From positions 62,001-126,000 of the forward strand of contig NZ_CZPZ01000002.1 in NCBI RefSeq assembly GCF_001458775.1: DNA of 64,000 bases, in the 5' to 3' direction. This DNA is from Candidatus Nitrospira nitrificans (GTDB taxonomy: Bacteria > Nitrospirota > Nitrospiria > Nitrospirales > Nitrospiraceae). The notes under the pieces are model-generated. The model was not told where the DNA came from and made no database searches. It saw nothing but the letters and a program-made list of their open reading frames with translations. Each line of letters begins with the position of its first letter. Position 1 is the stretch's first letter. Of this stretch, positions 20,013-53,369 are shown piece after piece. The position numbers were made by a program, and so were the translations under genes.

Positions 20013-20230
20013 ACGAAGGGCGAGCTGGAATTTCCAGGCTTCGGCACTCCGGCTCGACCGCACGTACCACTCCCTCTGCTCGCCTGCGCAACTTGTTCCG
20101 CTTCGAATGAAATTCTAGCGGAACTTCGAGCAGTGCTCGCCGTCCGCTCTGCGGAGCGCATCGGTCGTGGAGTGCGGGAAGCTCGAGCCTCCGTGCAAGG
20201 CGCCTGGTAATCCCAGCTCACCCTTTTCAA
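19992..20230. repeat. Long imperfect palindrome at the end of purC
   Basis: TTGAAAAGGGT (19992-20002) recurs inverted at 20220-20230. Inside it, 24-nt arms at 20016-20039 and 20202-20225 match at 21 of 24 positions. A central GTTCCGCT (20095-20102) and AGCGGAAC (20117-20124) also pair. The whole 239-nt stretch can fold into a long hairpin with bulges. It overlaps the purC 3' end and separates it from the next gene. It may be a MITE-like insertion or a processed RNA structure. No coding frame is supported inside. Confidence 0.55.
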
Positions 20231-27341: not shown

Positions 27342-27487
27342 TTTCCCTCCCGCGCCACGGTTGCCGCTCTAAAAATTTCCGTGATAGGATGCGGCATCGC
27401 TGCTTGTTTACGCAGCGACCACGGTTGCACCAGGACCCCGATGGTCATGGTCGGGCGCGTGTGATGTCTGTTGAAAGGGAGGTCGTG

Positions 27488-28018
27488 ATGAGACGGCTTG
27501 CACGGGCGTTTGGGCTGCTGGTCTTCCCGGTACTCTGCGCGACACTGGTTTCGGCAGCGGGATTGTTCCAAGTAGGAGAAAAAGCTCCATCCTTCACTCT
27601 TACCGCCCTCACCGGTGAAACCCTGTCGCTCGAATCCTATAAAGGGAAAGTGGTGGTGCTGGGACTCTTTCATATCTGTGATCCATGCATGATCCAGGGG
27701 AGCGCCTTGCAAAAAGTCCATGAGTCGACACAAGGCAAGAACGTGGCCGTGCTGGGTGTCAATTCGTCAGGGAACTCTAAGCGAGAGGTCGGCGAATTCT
27801 TGTCCGGCTTCCCGGTCAAGGTCACCTATCCCTATCTGTTAGATCCAGCCAAGGTGACAGATAAGCTGTACGGTGGGGGAAAGTTTATTCCCAATGTGTA
27901 TGTGATCGACCAGCAGGGCGTCATCCGCTGGCAGCGAGTCGGCAATATGGACTTGGCGGGAGTCGACGTCATTCTGGCAGAAGTTGAGAAGCTATTGGCG
28001 AGCGGAAGTAAAATGTAA
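27488..28018 (+). CDS. Secreted thioredoxin-fold (TlpA/ResA-like) protein
   Basis: This protein of about 176 residues has a signal peptide ending near VSAAG. The AhpC/TlpA thioredoxin fold follows: GEKAPSFTLTALTGETLSL, then the redox pair in FHICDPCMIQG and a cis-Pro segment, KFIPNVYVID. The CDPC motif suggests periplasmic disulfide reduction or cytochrome maturation. GGGAGG lies ahead of the ATG. The stop codon's last base begins the palindromic element at 28018. Confidence 0.83.
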   Translation: MRRLARAFGLLVFPVLCATLVSAAGLFQVGEKAPSFTLTALTGETLSLESYKGKVVVLGLFHICDPCMIQGSALQKVHESTQGKNVAVLGVNSSGNSKREVGEFLSGFPVKVTYPYLLDPAKVTDKLYGGGKFIPNVYVIDQQGVIRWQRVGNMDLAGVDVILAEVEKLLASGSKM

Positions 28019-28137
28019 CGGGCGAGGACGGACGTTTCTCTGTGCGCGCTGACCGCCCGCCAAGACTCTATCGAATGTAGAAAGATGGCGGCGGTCCCTC
28101 AATGCGCGCAGTGAGAGGCACGTCCGTCCTCGCCCGT
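28018..28137. repeat. 119-bp family palindromic element, copy A
   Basis: ACGGGCGAGGACGGACGT (28018-28035) and its perfect reverse complement (28120-28137) close a 120-bp element. Inside, on the minus strand, CACTGCGCGCATTGAGGGAC and an inner stem match copies at 39709 and 53005. It starts on the last base of the preceding TAA and could act as a terminator. The outer stem differs in sequence from the other copies but is fully paired. Confidence 0.7.
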
Positions 28138-39708: not shown

Positions 39709-39827
39709 GCGAGGTGAGGGCGGTGGCCTCACCTGCGCGCATGCACCGAGCACCGCCCTTTGGTCTCCATACAATCAAGGTTGTGTGCGCGGTGCGCGAG
39801 CAACTGAGGGCAGCGCGCTTGCCTCGC
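39709..39827. repeat. 119-bp family palindromic element, copy C
   Basis: The 23-nt arms 39709-39731 and 39805-39827 pair with three mismatches plus two G-U pairs. Inside, on the plus strand, CCTGCGCGCATGCACCGAGC and GTGCGCGAGCA match copy B closely. It fills the gap between two divergently oriented minus-strand units, just upstream of the zinc-ribbon gene. Confidence 0.65.
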
Positions 39828-39831
39828 ATCC

Positions 39832-40566
39832 TCATATTCCCCACGCGCCGCTGATTTGGATATTCGCGCCGTTTACGTATCGCGCTTCTTCGCTGAGTAA
39901 ATACCGGACCGCTGCAACGGTATCGTCGACCGTTCCAATGTAGCCGGCGGGGATACGCTTCGTCATTGCCGCAAGTTCTTGCGGCGGCGCACTGCCGGAA
40001 TCGATGAAGCCGGGCGAGACGGCGTTGACGGTAATACCATAAGGCGCCAGCAACTTGGCCAACGTGCGCGTCAAAATGAGCACGCCGGCCTTGGCGATGT
40101 AATGAGCGGTGACGTCGGGCTGCGCTTCCATCTGATCGGCGTTAGCCATGCTGAAGTTGATGATATGGCCGATCTTGCGGGCCTTCATGCCCGGCGCGAC
40201 GGCCTGGGCGAGGTAGAAGATGGGATGCAGGTTGCCGGCAAACATCTCGTTCCAACCCTCGACGGTTTCGTCGAACAGGTTGATTCGATGATAGGGACCT
40301 GCGCCATTGATCAGGACATCGACTCGCCCCCATTCCGTTTCAACCTGCGCCACCATGTTCTTGGCCGCCACTGGGTCAGAAACATCGCACCGGATGGCCA
40401 GCGCTTGTCCTTCTCGCTGCATGATCTCCTGCGCCGTTGTCTTGGCCTCGCCTTCGCTGGTTCTATAGCAGAAGGCAATCTTCCAGTGCCGTGACGCGAG
40501 ATCGAGGGCGATCCCCCGCCCGATGCCTTTTGCCCCTCCGGTAATGAGCGCGACGTGCTGGTCCAT
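39832..40566 (-). CDS. Short-chain dehydrogenase with shifted catalytic Tyr
   Basis: This 244-residue SDR has the NAD(P) loop ITGGAKGIGRGIA, the LINGAGP motif and a catalytic Ser in INFSMAN. At the YxxxK position it reads HYIAK: a His occupies the Tyr place and a Tyr follows one residue later. Relatives I recall read YYIAK. Activity may therefore be changed. The ATG at 40566 has AAGAGG upstream. It lies downstream of the two glycosyltransferases. The substrate is unknown. Confidence 0.78.
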   Translation of the reverse strand: MDQHVALITGGAKGIGRGIALDLASRHWKIAFCYRTSEGEAKTTAQEIMQREGQALAIRCDVSDPVAAKNMVAQVETEWGRVDVLINGAGPYHRINLFDETVEGWNEMFAGNLHPIFYLAQAVAPGMKARKIGHIINFSMANADQMEAQPDVTAHYIAKAGVLILTRTLAKLLAPYGITVNAVSPGFIDSGSAPPQELAAMTKRIPAGYIGTVDDTVAAVRYLLSEEARYVNGANIQISGAWGI

Positions 40567-40600
40567 GTGGGGCCTCTTTAGTTGAACGGTTAAGGGAGCA

Positions 40601-41356
40601 TTATCCTCTCGAAGAAAGTCGTTTGGCGAGCGCCTGAAGCACGCCGGCCGTGCGGCCTGAAAATACCCGATCATTCTTCTGCTTCTTGGTGTCGGCGGCG
40701 CAATCTTTCATGAGGGCTTCCAGATCGGCCAGAGTATCGACGTCGCGCCACGGTTGAATCACGGAAGCCTTGAATCCGATCGCCGCCGCTTTCTCCTGTG
40801 TGAGCCTGAGTACTTGATCGGTCGACCATGGAATGTCGGCGAAGAGTTCCGGCGCCGGCCGCTTGAGGCCGATCAGATAGTACCCTCCATCCAGCGCCGG
40901 CCCAAGCACGAGATCATGGTTCTCCAGCAAAGCGAGCGCCTGCTTGAAATGATCGGGTGGAATCGTCGGCACGTCCGTTCCGACGAGTGCGACCTGTCGA
41001 TACCCTTGCGCGAACAGTGTTTGAAAGGCTTGGTTCATGCGACTGCCGAGGTCTTTGCCGACTTGATCGATCAGTTTCACGCCCTGCCGCTCCTCCAAAA
41101 TCTTGAAGAAGACGTGCGTCGCGGACGGGGCACAGGCCAGATAGCGATCGATCGGCAACTTCAACTTCGTGACGGCGGTTTGTGTTCGCTCCAGTGTATC
41201 GAGGACAAAGCTCCCATGGAGCGTGGCCGCTTCGTCGGGGGTGAGCGGTGGGCAGAGGCGTGTCTTGACCTGCCCAGGAACCGGCGCTTTGGCGAAAATC
41301 GCCAGAGCGGCCTGGTGAAGGGTGAGGGGTGAAGAGCGAGGGGTTGTCGGTTTCAT
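40601..41356 (-). CDS. TIGR04282-type glycosyltransferase-like protein (DUF2064)
   Basis: This 251-residue protein has the nucleotidyltransferase-like fold of this group: ALAIFAKAPVPGQVKTRLCP near the N-terminus, VALVGTDVPTIPPDH with the metal Asp, and LGPALDGGYYLIGLK. Members usually sit beside a TIGR04283 glycosyltransferase, as here. The start overlaps that gene's stop by 4 nt. The sugar donor and product are unknown. Confidence 0.85.
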   Translation of the reverse strand: MKPTTPRSSPLTLHQAALAIFAKAPVPGQVKTRLCPPLTPDEAATLHGSFVLDTLERTQTAVTKLKLPIDRYLACAPSATHVFFKILEERQGVKLIDQVGKDLGSRMNQAFQTLFAQGYRQVALVGTDVPTIPPDHFKQALALLENHDLVLGPALDGGYYLIGLKRPAPELFADIPWSTDQVLRLTQEKAAAIGFKASVIQPWRDVDTLADLEALMKDCAADTKKQKNDRVFSGRTAGVLQALAKRLSSRG

Positions 41357-52238: not shown

Positions 52239-52565
52239 GTGGCCTCTCTTCCTGTCATCGCGCGGGACAATGAGCGCGGGGCGCTCTTGACCGTCCACGT
52301 CCAACCAGGGTCTTCACGTACTGAGTGTGTCGGAATTCATGGCGATGCCATAAAGATCCGTCTGGCGGCGCGTCCGATTGACGGTGCCGCCAACGACGAA
52401 TTGATTCGCTTCATCGCTGAGCGATGTGCTGTTCCACGCGCGGATGTGCAGCTTTGCACCGGAGCGACGGGGCGGCGTAAGCGTCTATTTGTGAAGGGTG
52501 TCACGGCAGAGTCACTGTTGGCCGGACTGATGCGAAAAGAATCGAAAGGAAGAGGGAAGATATGA
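52239..52565 (+). CDS. DUF167 (YggU) family protein
   Basis: This 108-residue protein has the family pattern LTVHVQPGSSRTECVGIHGD, IKIRLAARPIDGAANDELI and CTGATGRRKRLFV. YggU proteins are small and widely conserved, with unknown function. It starts with a GTG. It overlaps the next lipoprotein gene by 4 nt. Length is normal. Confidence 0.86.
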   Translation: MASLPVIARDNERGALLTVHVQPGSSRTECVGIHGDAIKIRLAARPIDGAANDELIRFIAERCAVPRADVQLCTGATGRRKRLFVKGVTAESLLAGLMRKESKGRGKI

Positions 52566-52996
52566 GGAGAACGGCGATAGTCGGTGTCTTCGTGGTGATG
52601 CTGCTGGCGGGCTGTTCCGGCGCCCGCCCGGTGCTTTACCCGAATGCGCATATGCAATCAGTGGGAAAAGAAGTCGCCGAGCAAGACATCGAGGACTGCA
52701 AACAATCGGCGGAAGCCGCCGGGGCGAACGAAAGGAGTGGCAGCGCGGCGGGTCGCGTCGCCACAGGTACCGCCGTTGGCGCCGGGGTCGGTGCCGCGAG
52801 TGGCGCGGTTGGAGGAGCGATTTCGGGGGCGGTGGGTCGCGGATCAATGATCGGTGCGGCGAGCGGAGCCGTCTGGGGCCTTCTGACAGGATTATTTTCT
52901 GCTGCCGTCGGTCCTTCTCAGCCCAACCACGCGTACACCAATTACGTCAATCGATGTTTGCAGGAAAGAGGGTATGAGGTGACAGGGTGGCAGTGA
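52562..52996 (+). CDS. Glycine-zipper lipoprotein, copy 1
   Basis: This 144-residue protein has a lipobox (LLAGCSGARP) and a central glycine-zipper membrane-like region (GTAVGAGVGAASGAVGGAI), followed by a C-terminal YVNRCLQERGYEVTGWQ. The last motif also ends the paralogue at 53370. It is an envelope lipoprotein of unknown function. The ATG overlaps the DUF167 stop by 4 nt. Confidence 0.78.
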   Translation: MRRTAIVGVFVVMLLAGCSGARPVLYPNAHMQSVGKEVAEQDIEDCKQSAEAAGANERSGSAAGRVATGTAVGAGVGAASGAVGGAISGAVGRGSMIGAASGAVWGLLTGLFSAAVGPSQPNHAYTNYVNRCLQERGYEVTGWQ

Positions 52997-53004
52997 GGGG
53001 AGAT

Positions 53005-53122
53005 GGTTGCGTGTGGGAGAGGTTCCTGTGCTCGCGCATCGCGCACACGGGATGCTATTTGAATTGAAACTAGGGGCGGCGCTCGATGCATGCGCGCAGT
53101 GGGAACCCTCCCTCACGCAACC
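53005..53122. repeat. 119-bp family palindromic element, copy B
   Basis: The outer arms 53005-53026 and 53102-53122 pair over about 21 bp with one indel and few mismatches. On the minus strand the inside reads CACTGCGCGCATGCATCGAG, then GCGCGATGCGCGAGCA, close to copy C. It lies 8 nt after the first lipoprotein gene. Its stem has no likeness to copy A's stem although both pair. Confidence 0.68.
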
Positions 53123-53369
53123 TAAAAGCGAAGGATAAAGAATAGATTGATGTGTGGGTGGTGGTCGGTCAATGCGCGCAATAGAAACGACCTCGATGCC
53201 CAATCTGAGTGGCGAGTACATGAAGGGATGTGCTCGGACAGTGCGCGCAATGGAGCGTCCACCCGTCCGGTCTGGGGACAGAGAACTGTGCGCAATTGGA
53301 AAAATCTCGACATTTACTCCAAAGGGTGAGAAGTGAAGAAAAACAAAGAAATCACTTTTGGAGACGTCT
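53123..53369. repeat. Degenerate copies of the palindromic element
   Basis: Between the two lipoprotein genes, minus-strand reading shows TATTGCGCGCATTGACCGAC near 53165-53185, CATTGCGCGCACTGTCCGAG near 53232-53252 and a shorter TTGCGCACAG near 53284-53295. They look like partial or decayed copies. No gene is supported; the GGAG of the next gene is at the end. Confidence 0.5.

Follow-up and report, generated by a model that had tools for sequence, protein, structure and literature searches.

What kind of element keeps its arms complementary while their sequence is free to vary, and on which strand does it act? The question is raised by a palindrome at positions 53005-53122 of the window, the 64,000-nucleotide stretch of the Candidatus Nitrospira nitrificans genome analysed here. 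The original prediction grouped it with two further copies, at 28018-28137 and 39709-39827, and all three are present as it described them, with lengths of 118, 120 and 119 nt, respectively.

Architecture and distribution of the hairpins

The three elements, all of the long type, were scored with R1, a covariance model built from nine sequences. Element A (53005-53122, plus strand; 90.8 bits, E 2.1e-20) has outer stem arms at 53005-53027 and 53101-53122 enclosing a core at 53029-53098, and its first base lies 8 nt past the stop codon of a glycine-zipper (OmpA-like) gene (52562-52996, plus strand). Element B (28018-28137, plus strand; 67.8 bits), with outer arms at 28018-28040 and 28113-28137 and a core at 28043-28110, shares its first base with the end of the stop codon in a gene for a ResA-like thiol-disulfide oxidoreductase (27389-28018, plus strand); it has orthologous copies across the genus, and this position is referred to as site B. 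Element C (39709-39827, minus strand; 78.7 bits) consists of outer arms at 39709-39733 and 39803-39827 around a core at 39734-39802 and begins ~4 nt past the stop codon of a short-chain dehydrogenase gene (39832-40674, minus strand); no orthologues of this site were present among the fetched loci.

Each element is one long hairpin, in which a mismatch-bearing conserved core sits within a self-pairing variable outer stem. Two of these copies are the longest gapped inverted repeats in the window, and against dinucleotide shuffles their folds reach z-scores of -5 to -7 (A), -10 (B) and -3.5 to -5.3 (C). From the outside inward, a variable outer stem of ~23 bp is followed by a 1-2/2-4 internal loop, a core in which TGC-n-CGC pairs with GCG-C-GCA, a 2-nt bulge, and a middle stem that carries a second 1x1 mismatch (C.T) and ends in a variable loop at the tip. 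The shared core that had been proposed exists as a motif common to all three, TGC-n-CGC ... RYGCGCGCAG (n is T in A and C, and G in B), but C runs in the opposite orientation and has to be reversed to display it. A scan of the whole window against Rfam gave no family at the gathering threshold. On the right, element A is flanked by a purine-rich, C-poor segment (53123-53160, plus strand), a feature found family-wide. Further 3' of A, between two glycine-zipper genes, lie three short degenerate repeats, TGCGCGCAATA, TGCGCGCAATG and TGTGCGCAATT (53165-53310, plus strand), which contain TGCGCGCA and are possibly half-elements.

A covariance-model search carried the family beyond the three copies from which it had been predicted: R1 identifies 13-16 good copies here, with matches at 16-18 places of the genome (E 2e-20 to about 1). 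Within Nitrospira, copies occur in 72 of 79 genomes at E <= 1e-6; no element passes this threshold in the small group of genomes G008, G009, G056 and G062-G065, which measure 2.3-2.9 Mb. The hairpin family is almost confined to the Nitrospiraceae, as a broader model, R2, matched 105 of the 396 genomes in a sample of the phylum, all but two of them within the Nitrospiraceae. The sister genera mostly have a short type, with a 74-nt match and ~96 nt in all, compared to 118 nt for the long type, and two of their genomes contain 81 and 106 matches (R2, E <= 1e-8). Because the elements are related to each other, the counts given here and below are not independent. No description of the family was found among open-licence papers.

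Pairing of the stems

In Nitrospira, arms folded with their own partner gave a mean of -34.8 kcal/mol, compared to -17.2 kcal/mol for arms swapped between elements, which bears out the original prediction that the outer stems differ among copies yet pair with themselves; the corresponding values in other genera were -34.7 and -19.8 kcal/mol. At the site behind the ResA-like gene, aligned across 12 species, compensatory changes occurred on both sides in 22 of 39 pairs, and 90.6% of the alignment cells were paired. The covariation score was 0.515, compared to 0.215 for shuffled and at most 0.151 for slid alignments, and when the alignment was folded freely, 21 of 37 pairs had changed on both sides. 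In species near the source genome, the stem sequence changes stepwise. This stepwise change and the covariation argue that the outer stem is passed on with its pairing preserved and is not simply acquired anew. The double-sided changes also uphold the earlier proposals that the structure is under selection and that the stems covary.

The core had been described as fixed, which applies to its two 1x1 mismatches and not to its paired bases. The core pairs covary too, with CGC/GCG replaced by CCC/GGG or CGT/ACG and TGC/GCA by CGC/GCG, whereas the mismatches are nearly invariant, the top-strand T.C occurring in 117 of 117 and the C.T in 115 of 117 elements of other genera. On the bottom strand, these mismatches are G.A and A.G.

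The arms of an old palindrome might also stay complementary with no selection at all, through template-switch (quasi-palindrome) correction, a mechanism known to homogenise inverted-repeat arms (PMC8604942). We consider this improbable, because mere homogenisation would erase fixed mismatches, and here the T.C and C.T mismatches stay intact while the flanking pairs change. A strong strand bias of A.C over G.T, described below, is likewise unexpected from such a process, and the symmetric base composition after other stop codons argues against a mutational cause.

Gene ends and the folding strand

The elements lie at gene ends. According to a home-made and crude gene caller, the gene on the left is on the same strand in 111 of 122 Nitrospira elements, the distance from its stop codon to the stem has a median of 2 nt and is within 15 nt in 92 elements, and 100 of the 122 sit between two co-directional genes. 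The orientation rule is weaker in the sister genera, where the left gene is on the same strand in 48 of 69 cases. As read from the translations, the upstream genes are functionally unrelated and include radA-, glmS-, glutaredoxin- and ResA-like genes. At some gene ends the element persists vertically, with compensatory change. The flanks on the top strand have an A+G content of about 75-80% and a C content of about 7%, with ~80% A+G and 7% C over positions +1 to +30 of the right flank (133 elements). By comparison, the composition after other stop codons is 48% A+G, with G at 0.27 and C at 0.28.

Outer-stem mismatches were counted on the gene's strand with strand-symmetric scoring, giving 197 A.C against 54 G.T. 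By element, 88 lean towards A.C and 12 towards G.T (p 2e-15, a value that ignores relatedness and is therefore indicative), whereas the ratio of A.C to G.T in a swapped-arm control was 1.5:1. An independent set from other genera contained 132 A.C and 42 G.T, with 62 elements leaning one way and 16 the other. In addition, the folding energy was better for the bottom strand in 89 of 142 decided cases and for the top strand in 53. As A.C on the top is G.T below, wobble pairs are tolerated on the bottom strand and not on the top, so it is the bottom (template) strand whose folding has been preserved.

A sense-strand structure in the 3'UTR of the upstream gene's mRNA, serving as a stabiliser or terminator, would fit the fixed orientation, the short distance to the stop codon and the very stable fold. 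It is nevertheless disfavoured because the mismatches on the gene strand are A.C and not G.U, with G.T strongly avoided there, and the antisense strand folds better; nor is there a T-rich tract after the stem, as in an intrinsic terminator, T making up 11-19% of the next 30 nt on the gene strand. We give this explanation little weight. The structured RNA offered in the original prediction has thus lost its sense-strand form, while a bottom-strand RNA keeps some probability and is weighed below.

Mobility and its candidate agents

Several elements lie within the apical loop of another element whose outer half-arms still pair. Six such nested cases exceed the 5% null, and five of them (L169, L266, L254, L228 and L259) also exceed the 1% null. 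The junction is often directly after ...GAAGG of the host loop, and traces at the target site are vague, with 2-4 nt AAGG-like duplications in some nested cases and deletions in others. Moreover, a recent GATGATC subfamily occurs at unrelated sites in several species as the same hairpin with a ~35-nt right tail, TGAAGAGATAACGAGCGAGCTTGGAGGGAGCAT, and often stands where an older copy would have its apical portion. In at least one recently active subfamily, the unit comprises the hairpin and ~35 nt beyond its right (gene-downstream) end.

Empty sites provide the uninterrupted counterparts. In L088 and L101, only 22 nt separate the purC-like stop codon from the next start, where others carry the element, and the position behind the resA-like gene is empty in L091, L096, L128 and others. 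No trace of the hairpin arms is seen at the empty sites, so the outer stem arrives with the element. An origin of the outer stem from a pre-existing terminator hairpin was rejected, because the subfamily copies carry the stem and the empty sites are armless. Nested copies and empty sites together indicate that the family has been mobile, in line with the dispersed mobile repeat first proposed; among near-identical strains, no transposition was seen.

Two further observations concern neighbouring structures. Directly 3' of the purC-like stop codon of the window lies a second, different palindromic element (20013-20230, plus strand) of ~215 nt with a fold of -106.7 kcal/mol, at a position that in related species is either occupied by the hairpin family or empty; its homologues in L075, L080, L087 and L098 have diverged but paired outer arms. 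Elsewhere, small gene pairs flanked by 5' half-elements sit between or inside element copies (L181:4448-5443, L182:1169-1806 and L184:4318-4955). Their translations read as toxin-antitoxin-like, of the RelE/HigB plus HigA-like and DUF433/DUF5615-like kinds, and the hairpins there look as if they were docking sites for gene cassettes.

The original prediction favoured the REP/RAYT type, in which a short palindrome is moved by a REP-associated Y1 tyrosine transposase (RAYT, TnpA-REP). REP/BIME sequences are likewise small extragenic palindromes dispersed in many copies, mostly behind coding regions, with a presumed single-strand mobility; GTAG-REPs are extragenic palindromes located 3' of genes (PMC3733652). 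Moreover, this genome does encode one RAYT-like protein of 223 aa, its only Y1 transposase (G000:C10:88009-88353, locus L024). However, a different repeat, GGGTCGGGAGTCTT(T/A), flanks that gene and is likely the true REP family of this genome, and Y1_Tnp (PF01797) is absent from the element-bearing genomes G031 and G077 (both near-complete), G005, G037, G051, G059 and G067. RAYT was therefore rejected as the mobiliser, element-rich genomes being without Y1 and the local RAYT lying beside another repeat. The hairpins also differ from REPs in length, being several times longer (96-120 nt compared to 20-40 nt), in their variable outer stem, in their fixed orientation to the gene, and in having no GTAG/CGTC tag at the hairpin foot, where the flanks are merely A/G-rich. 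Altogether, membership in the REP/RAYT system is very improbable.

A resemblance in behaviour also exists to integron attC sites and CALIN arrays, the cassette recombination sites that fold on the bottom strand. They share with the hairpins the position behind stop codons, the single orientation, the bottom-strand structure with conserved unpaired bases, and arrays adjoining toxin-antitoxin-like genes. Nevertheless, the conserved part of the family is inside the hairpin, with no R'/R'' boxes, L boxes or conserved bases at the outer stem ends, and insertions enter the loop, where copies nest, and not the base. Of 12 element-bearing genomes, only four, G000 (on contig C25), G207, G213 and G308, had an integron integrase scoring above the cut-off, and its absence from the other 8 led us to reject it as the mobiliser. 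The family works partly like attC but lacks the features that define membership, and we find an attC identity hardly credible. The integrase of G000 (460 bits) is on a small high-GC contig with a canonical-looking cassette array (G000:C25:1-9873, L305), whose composition suggests that it may be contaminating DNA; a search of this contig with R2 gave no match, and its integrase is unconnected with the hairpins.

ERIC/IRU, Correia elements, RUP and other MITE-like repeats are also non-autonomous, intergenic, imperfect palindromes of 100-150 bp found in operons, and the hairpins share with MITEs the insertion at defined sites that have uninterrupted counterparts. Those repeats are known to keep one sequence throughout, whereas in the hairpin family the stem sequence is free, only the structure and the two mismatches are conserved, and there is a bias towards one strand. 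Group IIC introns and hairpin-targeting insertion sequences resemble the family in inserting into hairpin loops or beside terminator-like structures; the hairpin unit, however, contains no coding region of an intron or a transposase. A reverse transcriptase was rejected as the mobiliser, since 7 of the 12 element-bearing genomes have none. The family shows no dependence on a Y1 transposase, integron integrase or reverse transcriptase gene.

We propose, with a probability of about one in two, that the elements are small, non-coding, non-autonomous, REP-like mobile hairpins whose active form is a single-stranded nucleic acid of the bottom strand, most likely ssDNA. The hairpin and its G.A mismatches would be recognised by some host or trans-acting protein, and insertion would occur where it does least harm, behind stop codons and in the loops of hairpins already present. 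Resident copies might then stay folded because they continue to be recognised or because the bottom-strand hairpin has a secondary role. A purely selfish element would not be expected to be maintained for long at fixed gene ends, so the host may draw some function from it.

Sequence alone cannot separate ssDNA from bottom-strand RNA. The latter is the main rival: a functional antisense RNA, or a hairpin formed by the bottom strand when antisense transcription reads through, would be retained at gene ends and copied by duplication and insertion. Compensatory changes that include G.U on the bottom strand, bottom-strand flanks that are C/U-rich, G-poor and rut-like, and persistence at orthologous gene ends are all consistent with it. 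It nevertheless seems unlikely to us, though less so than the sense-strand structure, as the upstream genes share no function, site B is empty in many species, and at site B the next start codon is only ~40 nt away, with no conserved bottom-strand promoter visible.

Compared to the mobile-hairpin reading itself, a more specific version is put forward tentatively, namely that the family represents a new mobile system, in which bottom-strand hairpins are put after stop codons and into apical loops by an enzyme that is neither Y1, IntI nor RT and that recognises them by the two G.A mismatches. Retention of the hairpins may serve the cell in its handling of gene ends. The family also offers a case in which the wobble asymmetry between A.C and G.T reveals the functional strand of a palindrome, and other orphan palindromic repeats could be examined by the same test. 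The Nitrospiraceae include the main nitrite oxidisers and, to our knowledge, all known comammox bacteria; a strand-specific, loop-targeting repeat at the gene ends of their operons would point to an undescribed enzyme that acts on single-stranded hairpins.
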